Assembly (NCBI GenBank): GCA_021846605.1
Contig: JAJZWQ010000102.1
Location: 1 to 11,813, forward strand
Reading direction: 5' to 3'
DNA length: 11,813 nucleotides
Source of the DNA: Bacillota bacterium
GTDB taxonomy: Bacteria; Bacillota_E; RBS10-35; JAJYVN01
The position numbers and the translations under genes are program-made. The notes under the pieces were generated by a model, which saw nothing but the letters and a program-made list of their open reading frames with translations, was not told the DNA's origin and ran no database searches. This document shows positions 3,878 through 10,846 of the stretch, one piece after another (within the stretch, counting starts at the first letter, position 1; each line of letters begins with the position of its first letter).

Positions 3878-4690
3878 TCAGGACCCGGCGCCCTGGTACT
3901 GGGCGACCGCGCGCAGCCAGACCAGCCACGCCAGCCCGGCGCAGGTCAACCCGACCGGCAGCACAAAGAGCCCCGCGGCGGCGGGCAGGAAGGCGCCCCG
4001 GGTGGTTTCGTGCAGCAGCCAGGCCGCGGGGTAGAAGTTCATAAACGCAAAGGGCAGGATGAAGGTCATGGCGGCCTGCAGCGGCTTGGCGAAGATGTTC
4101 GCCGGATAGACGATGTAGCGCTCCTCCAGCACCATGGCCAGCCAGGAGAGTTCGCCGGTATCCACCAACCAAAAGCCGGTGGCGGCCACCAACAACTCGA
4201 CCGCGAAGGCGATCAGTGCCCCCCCGACGATGGTCAGCAGCAGCACGGCCACGTGTGGCGCGGTCCACCGCAAATGCACCATGGCGGCGGTCAGCCCAAA
4301 AAAGAGGATGCCCACGACCAAGTCGTGGCCGGGTTGGGGGTCGGGGATCGCCAGGGCCTGCAGCAGCGGCGGTTTGGGACGCAGCAGGAAGCGGTCGAAC
4401 GTGCCTTGGCGGATGTGCGTCGGAACCTGCTTCACCGGACGGAACAGCAGCAGGTATACGCCGTGGGACAACAGTCGGAGCGCAAACAGGAAGAGCAGGG
4501 CGGGAAGCGGCCAGCCGCCCAGGCGGTGGAAGCGGCTCAGCAGCACGTAGATGGTACCGACGCCCACAAGCTGATACAGCAGGGTGTAGGCGGTGCCCAC
4601 CGCGAAGTCGTACGGATACTGCGCAAAGGCCCGCACATTGAGCCACCAGGCCCGGGCGAAGTAGCGCAGGAGCGACGCCAAGGCGGTCAC
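3878..4690 (-). CDS. ABC-2-type exporter permease (COG3694-like)
   Basis: A 270-residue integral membrane protein, the second permease of an uncharacterised ABC exporter. It has about six hydrophobic segments, starting near residues 29-51. It carries the signature HIRQGTFDRFLLRP (92-105), a cytoplasmic loop shared with the partner permease, and ends in a VAQYQGAGS tail like the alternating tail (RYQ/E-x-x-G) common in this family. The substrate is unknown. The GTG start at 4690 overlaps the TGA of the upstream permease gene in a GTGA four-base overlap, so the two are very likely translationally coupled and form a heterodimer. A much longer open frame covers it in the same phase, but its upstream part is only a shadow of the other permease. 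Confidence 0.87.
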   Translation of the reverse strand: MTALASLLRYFARAWWLNVRAFAQYPYDFAVGTAYTLLYQLVGVGTIYVLLSRFHRLGGWPLPALLFLFALRLLSHGVYLLLFRPVKQVPTHIRQGTFDRFLLRPKPPLLQALAIPDPQPGHDLVVGILFFGLTAAMVHLRWTAPHVAVLLLTIVGGALIAFAVELLVAATGFWLVDTGELSWLAMVLEERYIVYPANIFAKPLQAAMTFILPFAFMNFYPAAWLLHETTRGAFLPAAAGLFVLPVGLTCAGLAWLVWLRAVAQYQGAGS

Positions 4691-5526
4691 CCCCCCTGGA
4701 TGACCAGTTTGCGGACGGCGCGCGACCAGACCCAGGCGGCGGTCAGACCGACGCCCGCCGTCCAGACGGCCTGGCGCGCGAGGGCCTGCCAACCGGCGGT
4801 GCCCCCCAGGTGTCCCAGGTAGAACAGGATGGGCAGGTTGATCAGGCCCTGGAAGGGCAGAAACGCCGCCACGGCACCCAGGACACCCGGAAAGAAGGCC
4901 AGCGGCAGCGTCGAGCCAGATAGGAACTGAATCACAAACAGGCTGCCGCCGATCAGGCCGCGGCCTTCCAGGGTCCAAAAGCAGAGGCTTCCCAGCAGCA
5001 GCATCAGCACCCGCACCAGCACCGCCGCCAGGATGACCGCCAGCACGAATTGGAACGCCTGCGGGGCGGCGGGCGGCAGCGGCCGCAGCAGGGGCACGCC
5101 CACCAGCCCGATCAGCGCCAGCATGGGAAGGGCGAAGACCTTGTTGCCGAAGTCCTGTGCCAACAGGGCCACCGGTACGGGCACCGGGCGGAGGAATTCC
5201 ATGGCGATGGTGCCCTCGCGGATTCCCTCCCGCAGGGTCCACGTCACGTTGGAGCCGGTCAGCAACTGGATGGCCAGCGACACGAGGGTGTAGGTGAACA
5301 GGGCCCGGAGGCTCATGCCGTCCACCACGAGGCCGGGCCGACCCTGATACAGCGCCAACCACAGTGAGAGCGGCACACCGAGGTTGAAGGCCAGGGCGAT
5401 GAAATCCAAGACCAGCGCCGAGCGGTAGGCCCCGAACGACGCCAGTCCCAAACGGAAGCTGCCCGCCACGGCGCGCAGCCAAGTCCTGGGCCCGGTACGG
5501 CGCAACGGCACGGCCGCGTGTGGCAC
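4687..5526 (-). CDS. ABC-2-type exporter permease (COG4587-like)
   Basis: A 279-residue integral membrane protein, the first permease of the ABC exporter. It has about six membrane segments, the first near residues 38-60. The loop GIREGTIAMEFLRPV (101-115) matches the equivalent loop in the partner permease (I-R-x-G-T, then L-R-P). It ends KLVIQGG. The GTG at 5526 is chosen because it follows a GAGGGGG site and lies just after the ATPase stop codon, 35 bases away. The open frame extends far upstream without similarity because it shadows the ATPase gene. Order and overlap indicate one operon: ATPase, permease, permease. Such trios are common in Bacillota and Actinomycetota and have no established substrate. 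Confidence 0.87.
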   Translation of the reverse strand: MPHAAVPLRRTGPRTWLRAVAGSFRLGLASFGAYRSALVLDFIALAFNLGVPLSLWLALYQGRPGLVVDGMSLRALFTYTLVSLAIQLLTGSNVTWTLREGIREGTIAMEFLRPVPVPVALLAQDFGNKVFALPMLALIGLVGVPLLRPLPPAAPQAFQFVLAVILAAVLVRVLMLLLGSLCFWTLEGRGLIGGSLFVIQFLSGSTLPLAFFPGVLGAVAAFLPFQGLINLPILFYLGHLGGTAGWQALARQAVWTAGVGLTAAWVWSRAVRKLVIQGG

Positions 5527-5561
5527 ATCCGGGCCCCCTCTTGGCCGCCCGCCGGGCCGGT

Positions 5562-6566
5562 TCAGCGGCTGGCGGGCACGGTGGGTAGCGGCGGCGTCCG
5601 CGTCTGGTACACGCGCCGCACGCTGTCTTCCAGCGCCGGCTCTTCCAGGGCGAAGTCGGCCACGGCATGGCGGGAAAGGAGCTCGCCCATCAATGCGGGG
5701 GCATCGACCCCTTCCTCCAGGGGGATGCGCACCCGGTTTTCCTCCTGCGCGCAGGCCACACCGGCGCCGAGACGGACCGGCTCGGCGTGGCGCAGCGTCA
5801 CCACCAACACCCGCGGGCCACCGTAGCGGCGGCGGAAGCTGGCCTGCGAGCCGTCGTAGACGACGCGTCCGCCGTCGACCACGAGGATCCGGTCGCACAG
5901 CGCCTCCACATCGGCAAGGTCATGGCTGGTCAAAAAGACCGTCACGCCGAGGTTGCGGTGCGCGTCTTGCAGCATGCGGCGCAGTTGGTCTTTGGCGACC
6001 AGGTCGAGTCCGATCGTCGGCTCGTCCAGAAAGAGGATGCGCGGTCGGTGGATCAGGCTGGCCGCCAGGTCGCCGCGCATCCGCTGTCCCAGGGAGAGCT
6101 GGCGGACCGGCACGCGCAGGAACGGTTCCAGGTCGAGCGCCGCGGTGAGTTCGGCCAGAGAGCGCCGGAAGGCGTCGGGCGGAAGGTCATAGACATACTG
6201 GAGGAAGTCGAGGCTGTCGGCCAACGGCAGGTCCCACTGCAACTGGCTGCGCTGGCCGAAGACCACCCCGATGCCGCGCACGTACGCCAGGCGGTCCTTC
6301 CAAGGGACCAAGCCGCCGACCCGGACGCTCCCCGATGTGGGAACCAGGATGCCCGTCAGGCACTTGACGGTGGTCGACTTGCCGGCACCGTTGGGGCCGA
6401 TGTAGCCGACGGCCTCACCCGCTTCAATGGTGAAACCGACATCCGTCAGGGCCGCGGTCTCCTCGTAGGAGCGCGTCGTGATCCAGCGCAGGCCCGCCAA
6501 CGAACCCTTCGGGCGCACGCGCCGGCGGAAGGTCTTGGTGAGGTGCGCGACCTCGATGAACGCCAC
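5562..6566 (-). CDS. ABC exporter ATP-binding protein (COG4586-like)
   Basis: A 334-residue ATPase powering the two permeases encoded downstream. Motifs in order: Walker A GPNGAGKST (57-65), Q-loop region VFGQRSQLQWDLP (102-114), signature LSLGQRMR (157-164), Walker B ILFLDEPT (177-184) and the switch histidine in TSHD (213-216). The LSLGQRMR signature in place of LSGGQ, and the VFGQRSQL segment, are typical of the COG4586 subgroup that pairs with COG4587 and COG3694 permeases. The last 100 residues are a C-terminal extension of unknown role. The start is GTG at 6566, with GGGAGGGG six bases upstream. It is the first gene of its operon. No clear promoter is seen upstream, and no substrate can be inferred from the neighbours. 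Confidence 0.93.
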   Translation of the reverse strand: MAFIEVAHLTKTFRRRVRPKGSLAGLRWITTRSYEETAALTDVGFTIEAGEAVGYIGPNGAGKSTTVKCLTGILVPTSGSVRVGGLVPWKDRLAYVRGIGVVFGQRSQLQWDLPLADSLDFLQYVYDLPPDAFRRSLAELTAALDLEPFLRVPVRQLSLGQRMRGDLAASLIHRPRILFLDEPTIGLDLVAKDQLRRMLQDAHRNLGVTVFLTSHDLADVEALCDRILVVDGGRVVYDGSQASFRRRYGGPRVLVVTLRHAEPVRLGAGVACAQEENRVRIPLEEGVDAPALMGELLSRHAVADFALEEPALEDSVRRVYQTRTPPLPTVPASR

Positions 6567-7415: not shown

Positions 7416-7445
7416 TTGCACAGCCTCGGCTTCAAGGCATACAAT
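7416..7445 (+). promoter_or_regulatory. Sigma70/sigmaA-type promoter of the fluoride operon
   Basis: The -35 TTGCAC (7416-7421) and the -10 TACAAT (7440-7445) are separated by 18 bases. The start site expected about seven bases after the -10 falls at 7451-7453, exactly where the riboswitch aptamer begins. This agreement supports both calls. The strong hexamers suggest that control is mainly by the riboswitch after initiation. Confidence 0.8.
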
Positions 7446-7451
7446 CCCACT

Positions 7452-7531
7452 GGGCGATGGAGCACCGCCTGGCTCGAAGGCCAAACCGCCTGTGCGCTGA
7501 TGGCTCCTGGCTTAAGGCCGGGGGCTTTTTT
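7452..7531 (+). promoter_or_regulatory. Fluoride riboswitch (crcB motif) with expression platform
   Basis: The 5' part GGGCGATGGAGCACCGCC (7452-7469) and the 3' part CTGATGGCTCCTGGC (7497-7511) match the conserved halves of the fluoride aptamer. GGCG (7453-7456) pairs with CGCC (7466-7469). A variable hairpin TGGC/GCCA follows (7470-7483), then CGC/GCG (7487-7489 with 7494-7496) just before CTGATG. The diagnostic pseudoknot is present: GGAGC (7459-7463) with GCTCC (7503-7507). GCTCC is also the left arm of the downstream terminator, so aptamer folding and termination exclude each other. Fluoride should stabilise the pseudoknot and allow read-through, an ON switch. This riboswitch class normally controls fluoride exporters such as CrcB/Fluc or CLC-F. 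Here it precedes a Cys/His-module protein and an MFS transporter. Confidence 0.95.
7503..7531 (+). terminator. Intrinsic terminator of the fluoride riboswitch
   Basis: GCTCCTGGC (7503-7511) and GCCGGGGGC (7517-7525) form a nine-pair stem with two G-U pairs around the loop TTAAG, followed by six T residues (7526-7531). It lies 36 bases before the first gene and shares its left arm with the aptamer, as expected of a regulated terminator. Confidence 0.92.
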
Positions 7532-7567
7532 CGTCTCTTGACCGCGAGGGAGGAAGGGGGTGCGATC

Positions 7568-8764
7568 ATGCAGGCGGAGCACGCTCACGGCCCGAGTGAT
7601 CGTCCGGCGGCGGCGGCCGGAACCTGTCCTGCCTGTGTGGTGGGGCGTACTGCGGCCGACCGGGTGGTGGCGGGGCTTGCCGCGGCGCAGGGGGCATTGC
7701 CCGCCTTGTGTGCCCGGCACGGTGCGTTTCTTGGGCAACAGGCGCCGCGGGAGTGGCTGGAGCGGTTGGCGGCCCGGGAGGCGAGCAACTGGGTCGAGGG
7801 CCGTGTGCCATGGCGGATTGAGCCTTGCTTGGCTTGCGAGGCCGCAACGGCGGCGGCTGCGGCGTTTGCCGCCACCCTCGCCGGATCCCCAGAGGGCGAG
7901 AACTCGGATGTTTGCTGGCGCCATCTGCGGGCGGCTCTGGTCGCGGCGGGCCGGCACGCCGCAAGGACATCCCTGGCACGCGCCGTTCGAAGCCAGCTTG
8001 AGGCCCTGGCCGTCGATTTGGAGCGGTATTCGCTGCTGCTGGACTATCATTATCGCGACCTGCCGCGCGGCCCGGAACAGGAAGCCTGGCGCCGTGCCCT
8101 GCTGCGTTTCTGGCCGCCCGAGTCGCTTGCCGCCACCCCGTCGGTGGTGGCGAGTCGACCGGTGCGGGTGCCGGACGGCGTGGACGACGTCGGCCTGGTC
8201 CACGCCTTGTTCCTGCTCGCGCCCGGTGGTTGTCCCGTCTGCGCACAGGCCCGTCGGGCCGCGGCGACGCACCTGCGCTGGTTCTTGCTGGATAACTACA
8301 ACAGCCTTGCGACCGTGCTGGCCCTGCGCCGCGGCGGGTATTGTTCATCCCACGCCGGGTTGCTGTGGACGCTGCCGGTGGCCCAGCTGAGTGTCACCTT
8401 TGAAGCCTTGGTGACGGCGGCGCTCGCGGACTTGCGGGCGGGTGTGCCGCCAGCGGAGACCGATGGCTGTCCGGCGTGCCGCGCGGCCGATAACGCGGCG
8501 GACGTGGCGGTGGCGGACCTGCAGGCCCTCTGGCGGGTCGCCTGGGGGCGCGGGGCGCTGGCCGCCGGTCCGACCCTGTGCCGGCGGCATGCGCTCTTGT
8601 GGCTACACGGCTTCCACGGACCGGGACGGGTGGATGCGGCCCAGGCCTGGGCCGCCGCGCTGCAGCGATCGCGGGATCGCGGGGCAGCCGCCGTGGTCGA
8701 TGCCCTGTGGGGCGGCACGTCCGTTCCGCCCGAGCGGGACGCGACGTTCACCTGCGCGACGTAA
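7568..8764 (+). CDS. Four-module CxxC...CxxH protein, DUF6062-like, first gene of fluoride operon
   Basis: A 398-residue protein of unknown function without signal peptide or membrane segment. It has four copies of a CxxC...CxxH module: C20/C23 with C48/H51, C87/C90 with C116/H119, C222/C225 with C259/H262, and C301/C304 with C338/H341. Each set could bind one zinc or similar metal. Modules 1-2 are followed by a helical stretch ending LLLDYHYRDLP...EAWRR (156-176), which resembles the FDYR tail I recall from DUF6062 proteins. The second half (from about 210) repeats the module pair without that tail, so the gene looks like an internal duplication. The third gene of the operon encodes a relative. 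The ATG at 7568 follows GGAAGGGGG (7552-7560) with seven bases between. It is directly under fluoride riboswitch control. A role in metal or fluoride handling is an inference. Confidence 0.85.
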   Translation: MQAEHAHGPSDRPAAAAGTCPACVVGRTAADRVVAGLAAAQGALPALCARHGAFLGQQAPREWLERLAAREASNWVEGRVPWRIEPCLACEAATAAAAAFAATLAGSPEGENSDVCWRHLRAALVAAGRHAARTSLARAVRSQLEALAVDLERYSLLLDYHYRDLPRGPEQEAWRRALLRFWPPESLAATPSVVASRPVRVPDGVDDVGLVHALFLLAPGGCPVCAQARRAAATHLRWFLLDNYNSLATVLALRRGGYCSSHAGLLWTLPVAQLSVTFEALVTAALADLRAGVPPAETDGCPACRAADNAADVAVADLQALWRVAWGRGALAAGPTLCRRHALLWLHGFHGPGRVDAAQAWAAALQRSRDRGAAAVVDALWGGTSVPPERDATFTCAT

Positions 8765-8824
8765 CGATGTCGCACGGACGGCGGTCTGCTGGGATCGCCG
8801 GTGACGCAGACGGGAAGGGATGTG

Positions 8825-10048
8825 GTGTGGGTGGCGGATGAAGGGGCGGCAGACGCGCCGGGGGCGCCTGGGGCCTGGCGCACGGCGGATGTCTGGCGGA
8901 TCGCCATGTCGGCGTTCTGCGCCGATTTGGGTTATCAGGCGGTGCTGGCGGTCTTTCCGCTCTTCTTGGTCCTGCGACTGCATGCGCCGGTGGCGCTCTT
9001 TGGGCTGGCCACCGCGGTCGCTTACGGACCGGGTGCCCTGGCCGGCTACATCGGCGGCCGGGTGGGGGACCGGGTGGGACGCAAGCGCACGGCGGTTTGG
9101 GGCAACGCCTTCATACCGCTGCTGTCGCTGATCGGTCTGGCGGCGGCGCCGGTGGAGGCCGTTGCCCTCTTGGCCCTGGGCTGGTGGGCGCGCAACTTCC
9201 GGTCGGCCCCGCGGCGGGCCATGCTGACCGAGATCGTGGCGCCGGCCGATCGGGGCAAGGCGTTCGGCTTTCTGCATGCGCTGGACATCGGTGGCGGCAC
9301 CCTGGCGGCGGTGTATGCGTTTGCGCTGGTGGCCCTGCTCGCGGCCCCCTACCGCCTGGTGCTGCTGCTTACGTTGGTCCCGCTGATCGCTTCGACCGTT
9401 GTGTTGGCGTTTGTGCGCGCCGGCAGGCGGCCGGCCGCACCGTCCCCGGCCGCAGGCGAGGCGCCCCCGACCAAGGCCGGCGACATGGCGGTGTATCGGG
9501 GTGTGCTGGTGGCCACGGCGCTGTATGGTTTCAGTTCCTATAGTGCGGGCTTCCCGATCCTGACGGTGGCACAGGGGACGCACAGCCCTGCCCTGGGCGT
9601 GCTGTCCTACGTGCTGTTTCTCGGGGTGTCCGCCCTGACCGGTCTGTGGGCGGGGCGGCGGTGGGGGGACAGCGTGCGCGGGCTGGCGCTGGCCGGCTAC
9701 GGAGCGGCCGCCCTGGGCTCGGCGGGGATCGCCCTCTCCTACGCCCTGCACCTCGGGGTCGCGGGGTTGTATGTGTCGATGGCGATCCTAGGCTTTGCGC
9801 TCGGGGTGGTGGAGACGCTGGAGCCGACCCTGATCGCCCGTTTGGCTCCGGCGGCCAAGACCAGCGGCGGCATGGGCTCATTGACCGCGTCCCGCAGCGT
9901 CGGACTGTTTGTCGCCAACATCGTGTTGGGCCTGCTGTATGCGCTGAGCCCCGTCTACTCCTACGCGTACGCCACCGCGGTGGCCGTTGCGGCCGTCGTC
10001 GTTTTGCTGGGGGTGCGGGCGCGCGTCGGGCGCCTGGCGGCCACATGA
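8825..10048 (+). CDS. MFS transporter, second gene of fluoride operon
   Basis: A membrane protein of about 407 residues from the major facilitator superfamily, with roughly 10-12 hydrophobic segments. The loop after the second segment carries MFS motif A, GGRVGDRVGRKR (77-88). A hydrophilic Pro/Ala-rich loop near the middle separates the two six-helix halves. Family members move solutes using ion gradients; the substrate cannot be read from the sequence. The gene sits 60 bases after the first gene and 45 bases before the third, all behind a fluoride riboswitch. Fluoride, or a compound whose export helps during fluoride stress, is therefore the obvious candidate substrate (inference). The start is one of several in-frame GTG codons (8801, 8822, 8825, 8831). 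I use 8825, which lies six bases after GGAAGG (8813-8818). Confidence 0.88.
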   Translation: MWVADEGAADAPGAPGAWRTADVWRIAMSAFCADLGYQAVLAVFPLFLVLRLHAPVALFGLATAVAYGPGALAGYIGGRVGDRVGRKRTAVWGNAFIPLLSLIGLAAAPVEAVALLALGWWARNFRSAPRRAMLTEIVAPADRGKAFGFLHALDIGGGTLAAVYAFALVALLAAPYRLVLLLTLVPLIASTVVLAFVRAGRRPAAPSPAAGEAPPTKAGDMAVYRGVLVATALYGFSSYSAGFPILTVAQGTHSPALGVLSYVLFLGVSALTGLWAGRRWGDSVRGLALAGYGAAALGSAGIALSYALHLGVAGLYVSMAILGFALGVVETLEPTLIARLAPAAKTSGGMGSLTASRSVGLFVANIVLGLLYALSPVYSYAYATAVAVAAVVVLLGVRARVGRLAAT

Positions 10049-10093
10049 CGCGCCGGGTGGGTCGATTCCATCCGGTCCGGGGCGGGAGATGGG

Positions 10094-10846
10094 GTGCCCG
10101 TGCAGCCGTTTGAGGCATCGGCCACGTACCAGGACCTCCAGCGATTCCTCGACGAAGCGGGCTGCGCGGTCTGTCAGGCCATGGCCCAGGCGGAGCGACG
10201 CTACTTTGACGCCCTGCTGTATGAGAACGTCCTTTCTCCACCGGTGCACCTGCGGCTGCGCGCCAGCAACGGCTTTTGCGGGCGGCACCTGGAGACCCTG
10301 GTCGCGCTGCGCGACCCCATGGCGACGGCGATCCTCTATGCCGGGGTGCTGGACGAACGGCGGCACTTGCTGGCGCGGTGGCGGCATGGCAACCGCTCCA
10401 TTACCCGGACCGTGGCCGTCGCGGCGCAATTGACGACCATCGGCTTGCGCTGCCCGGCCTGCGAGGCTGAAGGCGAGGCCGGAAAGCGGTCCTGCGAGGT
10501 CTTGGCCGCCGGCCTGGATACTGGAACCCTCCGTGCGGATTGGCGGCGGTCGGTCGGATTGTGCTGGCCGCACTTCGTTCAGACGCGGGCGCTCTGCCAT
10601 GCCGGCCGGCGGGAGTTGGAAGACCACGAATCCGAGGTGTTGGACCGCCTTGCCGCGGACGTGGACACCCTGGTCCGCAGCTTTGACTACCGCTGGCAGG
10701 GGGTGCGGACTTCCGCGGTCGAGGCGGCATGGCGCCGGGTGGTGGCGACGGTGGCCGGCCGCTTTCAGGGCGGCCTGCCGCATCCACCGCACCCCCGGCC
10801 CCCCAAAGACCGTCTGCAGGACGGAGGCCAGGGGGATGTTCCGTAG
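10094..10846 (+). CDS. Two-module CxxC...CxxH protein, DUF6062-like, third gene of fluoride operon
   Basis: A 250-residue soluble protein of unknown function, related to the first gene of the operon. Module 1 is C24/C27 with C62/H65 (NGFCGRH); module 2 is C120/C123 with C157/H160 (GLCWPH). A helical tail follows with LAADVDTLVRSFDYRW and EAAWRR (about 186-215), which lines up with residues 147-176 of the four-module protein. Module 1 lines up best with the third module of that protein (ARRA...FLLDNYNS...GYCSSH against AERR...ALLYENVL...GFCGRH). The C-terminal 30 residues are Pro-rich and probably disordered. The GTG at 10094 is five bases after GGGAG. It probably works with the first protein and the MFS transporter, but whether as metal carrier, sensor or partner subunit is unknown. 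Confidence 0.83.
   Translation: MPVQPFEASATYQDLQRFLDEAGCAVCQAMAQAERRYFDALLYENVLSPPVHLRLRASNGFCGRHLETLVALRDPMATAILYAGVLDERRHLLARWRHGNRSITRTVAVAAQLTTIGLRCPACEAEGEAGKRSCEVLAAGLDTGTLRADWRRSVGLCWPHFVQTRALCHAGRRELEDHESEVLDRLAADVDTLVRSFDYRWQGVRTSAVEAAWRRVVATVAGRFQGGLPHPPHPRPPKDRLQDGGQGDVP

Follow-up and report, generated by a model that had tools for sequence, protein, structure and literature searches.

A fluoride riboswitch leads a DUF6062 and major facilitator superfamily gene run, and DUF6062 appears to recur within the fluoride regulon

What does a fluoride riboswitch serve when the genes behind it encode no fluoride exporter of a known kind? The question is raised by an 11,813-nucleotide contig of a Bacillota bacterium (JAJZWQ010000102.1, analysed whole and hereafter called the window), in which a fluoride riboswitch of Rfam family RF01734 precedes a major facilitator superfamily (MFS) transporter gene lying between two open reading frames (ORFs), ORF1 and ORF3, with Cys/His modules. 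Comparison across the phylum points to the family of ORF3, DUF6062 (PF19538), as the constant element, since the subfamily of the window's MFS protein is otherwise unlinked to fluoride in 26 other genomes (flanks of up to 1.5 kb). Judged from sequence and gene position, DUF6062 appears to belong repeatedly to the fluoride regulon of the phylum. With moderate confidence, region 7417–10846 is read as a fluoride-inducible operon in which DUF6062 would act as an induced, metal-bound helper while CrcB, encoded elsewhere, carries out export. The features of the region are as follows.

7417–7445 (+), promoter-like −35/−10 pair, TGCACA(17)TACAAT, matching 9/12 positions in a consensus scan
7444–7516 (+), fluoride riboswitch aptamer (RF01734), 32.5 bits and E 7e-6 by cmscan
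7502–7526 (+), terminator hairpin of 11 pairs with a loop of 3, followed by a T tract; it overlaps the 3' strand of the aptamer, as read from the sequence
7568–8764 (+), ORF1, 398 aa, with four CxxC...CxxH modules, diverged DUF6062-like
8801–10048 (+), MFS transporter (PF07690), 415 aa from the GTG at 8801, a start at 8822 also being possible
10094–10846 (+), ORF3, 250 aa, DUF6062 (PF19538), with two CxxC...CxxH modules

The RF01734 match covers model positions 1–64, and its alignment retains an intact aptamer core (GGCGAUGGAG...CGCC and AACCGC...GCUGAUGGCUCCU) together with both pseudoknot strands, GGAG and CUCC. A scan of the leader returns one promoter site against 0.0 expected and two overlapping terminator sites against 0.2 expected from shuffles, so that alignment and scan agree with the initial annotation, which had found the aptamer halves, pseudoknot, terminator and promoter readable. 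Free folding of the leader RNA is unexceptional (z −0.34), and the case for the riboswitch therefore rests on the covariance model and on position. Aptamer, overlapping terminator and downstream reading frame have the layout predicted for a transcriptional ON switch with its expression platform in the 5' leader. Related loci carry similar leaders: in L001, a Bacillota contig of a metagenome-assembled genome (MAG) with coverage 2.4, and in L002, the 3' half of the aptamer and the hairpin are nearly identical to those of the window, the L002 leader having no T tract, and in the class relative G490 (L234) an aptamer of 35.6 bits, above the threshold, stands before a DUF6062 gene. Fluoride control of the three genes, an early claim for this locus, thus draws support from the leader sequence, from the riboswitches of these relatives and from the family-wide link described below. 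A further RNA match in the window, mir-3957 at 5569–5633, is dismissed as chance (25.1 bits against a cut-off of 84).

The three genes lie on the same (+) strand with intergenic gaps of 36 and 45 nt. The module scan gives the same count as was first noted, four in ORF1 (CxxC–CxxH spacings 28, 29, 37 and 37) and two in ORF3 (38 and 37), far above the shuffles, in which two modules arise by chance in 2/20,000 residue shuffles of ORF1 and 0/20,000 of ORF3. ORF3 passes the PF19538 cut-off of 27 with 48.3 bits and is matched over its length, both Cys3His modules included. ORF1 scores 15.4 bits, under that cut-off, and appears related to DUF6062 by profile comparison only, in which it aligns to the DUF6062 alignment with an hhalign Prob of 95.6 and E 1.3e-8; this agrees with the kinship of the two proteins proposed by the initial annotation, and both probably derive from or belong to DUF6062. 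The MFS protein matches PF07690 (MFS_1) over residues 35–372 with 86 bits (cut-off 33.4, E 3e-24). The AlphaFold2 (AF2) model of ORF3 is all helical, with a predicted local distance difference test score (pLDDT) of 83.7, and in this model every CxxC and CxxH is predicted to lie at or just before a helix start, as in many zinc sites. DUF6062 proteins are read as small and all-helical with paired Cys3His modules, and the motif suggests that they most likely bind zinc. The AF2 model of ORF1, built from a four-row alignment, is useless (mean pLDDT 35.5).

The link between DUF6062 and the riboswitch is examined in 398 genomes of the phylum of the relative G001, a sample spread evenly over a larger group. 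DUF6062 is found in 54/398 genomes, 51 of them above the cut-off, and RF01734 in 156/398. The 51 genomes are mapped for riboswitches with laxer filters at E 0.005, G001 being taken from a separate scan, and in two batches 19/30 and 13/21 of them contain a riboswitch. They hold 62 DUF6062 genes, from which the under-cut-off matches of G313, G383 and G376 are excluded. A same-strand riboswitch ends no more than 250 nt upstream of 19/62 genes, and such an upstream element lies within 1 kb of 22/62 and within 2.5 kb of 26/62; on either strand, one is present within 5 kb of 28/62. When riboswitch and gene numbers are dealt at random, about 0.04 close pairs are expected, giving a Poisson P of 6e-45 with a statistic that ignores kinship. 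The Rfam gathering score is exceeded by 12 of the 19 close riboswitches.

The same association recurs across the family. In a DUF6062 tree of 65 rows, labelled by the presence of a riboswitch upstream within 2.6 kb, the label changes 11 times, at least nine of the changes being forced by well-supported branches; this count is slightly off, as the two halves of ORF1 are entered as linked rows and the L002 protein is labelled 'no' despite the riboswitch preceding it, the ORF having been lengthened at its upstream end to run across that riboswitch. One protein that looks frameshifted and has lost many conserved positions (P0020) is excluded from alignment A3. Both modules are kept in 60/63 clustered DUF6062 ORFs, comprising 25/27 riboswitch-linked and 35/36 others, and in the riboswitch-linked ORFs the module spacing is 36–41 with 1/73 as the exception. 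Within the class of G001, a search of 154 genomes with the ORF3 alignment yields 16 positive genomes and 21 DUF6062 loci. Seventeen of the 21 loci were scanned for riboswitches, with five matches: directly before DUF6062 in G427, G446 and G490, roughly 0.9 kb ahead of it in G403 and downstream in G003. The loci of G001 and G002 are riboswitch-positive in a separate scan, and L250 and L251 lie outside the scan. Its presence behind fluoride riboswitches in many branches of the tree makes DUF6062 a probable, so far overlooked component of the means by which bacteria cope with fluoride. Tandem or double DUF6062 genes also occur, in G451:C84 (L248, L251), where an MFS gene comes next as it does in the window, and in G427 (L237).

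The genes keeping company with DUF6062 are compared between 30 loci whose retrieved sequence contains a riboswitch at any position (27 plus the window, L001 and L002) and 33 without; the former include G376, in which DUF6062 scores below the Pfam cut-off, and loci such as L127 where the riboswitch does not lie upstream of the DUF6062 gene. A full-size dynamin-like GTPase is present in 17/30 riboswitch loci against 1/33 others, the latter a 179-aa piece. The corresponding figures are 12/30 against 0/33 for CPA2 antiporters, 10/30 against 0/33 for MFS, 8/30 against 0/33 for Usp, 8/30 against 1/33 for HEAT and 5/30 against 0/33 for MutS-like proteins. L106 and L108, each with a 112-aa cluster member only, are not counted for dynamin, a similar 113-aa protein of L091 having no Pfam match, and an apparent MFS in L101 (G117) is dropped as it too has no Pfam match.

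A second set comprises the first 103 riboswitches listed among the matches of the 156 genomes, chosen without regard to DUF6062, with genes recognised by small home-made profiles and with runs ending at 1.5 kb for 28 loci. In this set CrcB occurs in 44 runs, a dynamin-like GTPase in 23 (some of these genes being broken or cut), DUF6062 in 12 (including a 61-aa fragment and a match that scores below the Pfam cut-off), CPA2 and Usp in 9 each, HEAT in 6, MFS in 3 and MutS-like proteins in 2. From these counts, DUF6062 is a regular member of riboswitch-led runs and MFS a rare one. A gene of no listed class is additionally contained in 81/103 runs; those viewed include enolase, antiporters of another branch, a MoxR ATPase and a synthase of the CMAS type. 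In a separate count, DUF6062 and CrcB share a riboswitch-led run in four cases, of which one is a fragment and one is under the cut-off.

Several of these companions form observations in their own right. Dynamin-like GTPases (PF00350) stand behind fluoride riboswitches at, for example, L084:2560–4326 (−), L110:4095–5951 (+) and L140, and one is so placed in a Candidatus Atribacteria MAG. A run of riboswitch, MFS and two MutS-like genes is repeated in G374, G091 and G311 (L110:9903–11093 (−), L111:7407–8669 (+) and L170). A CMAS-type cyclopropane synthase gene lies behind a fluoride riboswitch in G122, a MoxR AAA ATPase gene in G253 (by Pfam) and in G344 (by NCBIfam-like matches and by eye), with a DUF58-like protein also seen by eye, and a GGGtGRT-like pair, again by eye, in G128 and G189; the places of these CMAS-type, MoxR/DUF58-like and GGGtGRT-like genes are L151:207–1382, L143:500–1450, L123:10097–12230 and L062.

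The three-gene arrangement of the window is narrow, with few ORF1 relatives among the matches listed and an MFS subfamily that mostly lies apart from riboswitch and DUF6062. ORF1 has at least three close relatives (76–86% identical) and at least one weak relative among the matches listed, the ORF3 search gives 16 matches, and ORF1, MFS and ORF3 probably occur all together on two further contigs. L001, the nearest relative, is syntenic with the window without ORF1, in the order riboswitch, MFS, DUF6062, LysR. L002 has the order riboswitch, DUF6062, DUF190, followed by a second riboswitch (48.5 bits) that precedes a run headed by a complex I/hydrogenase membrane subunit; two published accounts already describe formate hydrogenlyase as a target of the fluoride riboswitch (PMC2864571, PMC11139923). 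In the window, an ABC-2 transporter block (a DrrA-like ATPase and a PF06182 permease, 3878–6566, −) separates a nitroreductase gene from the riboswitch; in L001 the nitroreductase gene directly adjoins the riboswitch. Farther off, the 208-aa product of 624–1250 (−) lacks a Pfam match and shows, by eye, a lipoprotein-like signal.

The relatives also bear on how the missing exporter is to be understood. Neither CrcB nor CLC has a Pfam match among the nine main window ORFs scanned, the three of the operon included, in keeping with the exporter absence first reported here. That absence holds within the borders of the window, and all three relatives examined (G001, G002 and G003) have two CrcB genes away from the DUF6062 locus. 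The CrcB pair of G001 has its own riboswitch upstream and DUF190 downstream, that of G003 has a riboswitch just upstream, and the pair of G002 has 249 nt of contig ahead of its first CrcB match, too little to tell whether a riboswitch precedes it. Given these CrcB pairs elsewhere, the operon is more likely to supplement export than to replace it, and is probably an addition to CrcB.

On the reading of a fluoride-inducible operon, the leader would form the terminator at 7502–7526 when fluoride is absent, and transcription would stop. Mg-bound fluoride would stabilise the aptamer pseudoknot, which would hold the CUCC strand, so that the terminator is avoided and transcription may proceed into ORF1, the MFS gene and ORF3; the parts of this switch are present in the leader, and induction by fluoride is inferred from the known riboswitch. 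DUF6062 may then serve in the cytosol as a metal-bound protein, an adaptor or one with a protective role, that limits fluoride damage, with membrane and ion-homeostasis proteins as its candidate partners (dynamin-like GTPase, CPA2 antiporter and various MFS carriers), while bulk fluoride export would be left to CrcB elsewhere in the genome. In the lineage of the window, the MFS carrier between two DUF6062-type genes would probably export a product or an ion that belongs to the fluoride response. In sum, DUF6062 would be a helper protein, induced by fluoride and binding metal, within the response to membrane and ion stress. A more specific form of this proposal, offered tentatively, is a dedicated fluoride defence in which metal-binding helical DUF6062 proteins, dynamin-like GTPases and interchangeable MFS carriers might form a second line beside Fluc/CLC-F export, acting in membrane repair or in the handling of metal–fluoride complexes.

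A number of observations weigh against this reading. The window aptamer, at 32.5 bits, falls 1.5 bits short of the Rfam gathering score of 34, and in L001 the GAUGGAG loop is lost and the aptamer scores 23.5 bits. Among the 19 close riboswitches, 7 are under the cut-off (20.3–30.5 bits) and 6 come from one tight genome group. No riboswitch lies within 250 nt of 43/62 DUF6062 genes, 19/51 DUF6062 genomes have none at all, and unlinked copies adjoin LonB, nitronate monooxygenase, Nudix or sugar kinase genes. There is likewise no adjoining riboswitch at the DUF6062 locus of G003 on C184 or at the more distant loci of Atribacteria G401 and of G402, the two riboswitches of G401 standing elsewhere, before dynamin-like and MutS-like genes. 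The rarity of MFS in the unselected runs counts on the same side, as do fold searches with the ORF3 model (Foldseek, VIA-align), which give no usable neighbour indicating function within the returned lists, and the putative nature of zinc binding, adaptor role and MFS export.

These points feed the rival explanations to different degrees. The low score, together with the decay of the 5' aptamer half in L001, could mean that the riboswitch has decayed and the operon has left fluoride control in this organism. The initial annotation had itself named a score below threshold as grounds for abandoning fluoride control, and the score is indeed below it, yet an E of 7e-6 is far past chance, and the view that the element works like a fluoride riboswitch stands. 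With core positions, pseudoknot strands, terminator and T tract intact in the window, and with the above-threshold aptamer of G490 before DUF6062, decay is a very improbable account. The many unlinked DUF6062 genes, a majority, and the many genes that fluoride islands contain would instead suit an incidental association, in which DUF6062 is carried along in stress islands next to the genes that truly serve against fluoride. DUF6062 is, however, the first gene behind the riboswitch at 21/152 sites of a DUF6062-enriched set and at 7/103 unselected sites, in distinct clades, and in G327, G281 and G305 it seems to have its own, weak riboswitch (20.3–28.7 bits) besides that of the next gene; incidental control is accordingly judged improbable.

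The transporter invites two further alternatives. The MFS protein might itself be a new exporter of fluoride (or HF), with the DUF6062 proteins as its partners and the operon replacing CrcB, as its place inside the operon, the recurrence of MFS in fluoride islands (the 10/30 against 0/33 above) and the runs of MFS with two MutS-like genes could suggest. The subfamily is broad, with at least 623 matches, of which the best 120 are listed, and a relative at E 1e-60 is found in 27/151 genomes of the class of G001. None of a further 28 places has a fluoride riboswitch or a DUF6062 gene in flanks of up to 1.5 kb, some shortened by contig ends; one of these places is a second copy in G001, and the other 27, spread over 26 other genomes, hold relatives 51–73% identical. 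A quick tree of 31 fluoride-linked and background MFS proteins spreads the fluoride-linked ones over several clades, and in G387, G374, G123, G344 and G174 the fluoride-linked MFS is a different protein from the one that best matches the window's. MFS is therefore rejected as the constant partner, yet within the class an MFS gene comes immediately after DUF6062 in G446 (with riboswitch), in G517 and in G451, where the DUF6062 protein is 437 aa long and matches ORF1 at E 4e-7, and MFS precedes DUF6062 in G001. With the CrcB pairs of the relatives and the 3/103 unselected runs also against it, an MFS fluoride exporter is unlikely, if slightly less so than incidental control. Rather better placed, though still doubtful, is an operon that handles a co-occurring toxicant or metabolite, such as an organofluorine, a metal–fluoride complex or a damaged lipid, which the MFS protein would export while DUF6062 would buffer metal or thiols. 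This explanation, which overlaps the helper reading, fits the variation of MFS clades between loci and the membrane-upkeep genes behind fluoride riboswitches (dynamin-like GTPases and the CMAS-type synthase of G122); such a substrate is hypothetical, and no dehalogenase is found among the nine window ORFs in the Pfam scan.

The fluoride-inducible operon with DUF6062 as helper thus keeps the spirit, for DUF6062, of the first suggestion of an undescribed fluoride system, and leaves aside the trio as such, which is narrow and whose MFS is usually unlinked. Closeness to the riboswitch in 19/62 genes and in many branches would point to an unrecognised fluoride target or repair step and gives DUF6062 a testable function, and the dynamin-like GTPases in 23/103 unselected runs are a second pointer of the same sort.

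Among known systems, PF19538 has no described function; ORF3 resembles the family in both modules, whereas ORF1 differs in having four and in falling under the cut-off. The MFS protein of the window is a clear member of PF07690, but without a sequence match in the PDB at E 0.001. 'DUF6062' was not found in the literature full text searched, nor were fluoride riboswitch and dynamin found together there, most subscription papers and the 2012 fluoride-riboswitch gene tables lying outside that text and an earlier listing of either under another name being possible. Fluoride resistance is described, in the available part of one account, as export together with pH, phosphate and metabolic adjustment (PMC11139923). 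The regulon, as far as the available text of PMC2864571 and PMC11139923 describes it, includes CrcB, antiporters, mutS-like genes, enolase and hydrogenase/complex I-like genes, and names neither DUF6062 nor dynamin-like GTPases nor MFS; the wider DUF6062 islands include those known members. CrcB/Fluc is comparable in that CrcB stands under the same riboswitch class, whereas the window operon matches neither CrcB nor CLC-F in the ORFs scanned and so departs from the regulon in having no exporter of a known kind. With the RF01734 regulon the window shares the same aptamer and terminator logic, and what appears new is the joining of this known regulator to an undescribed effector family.

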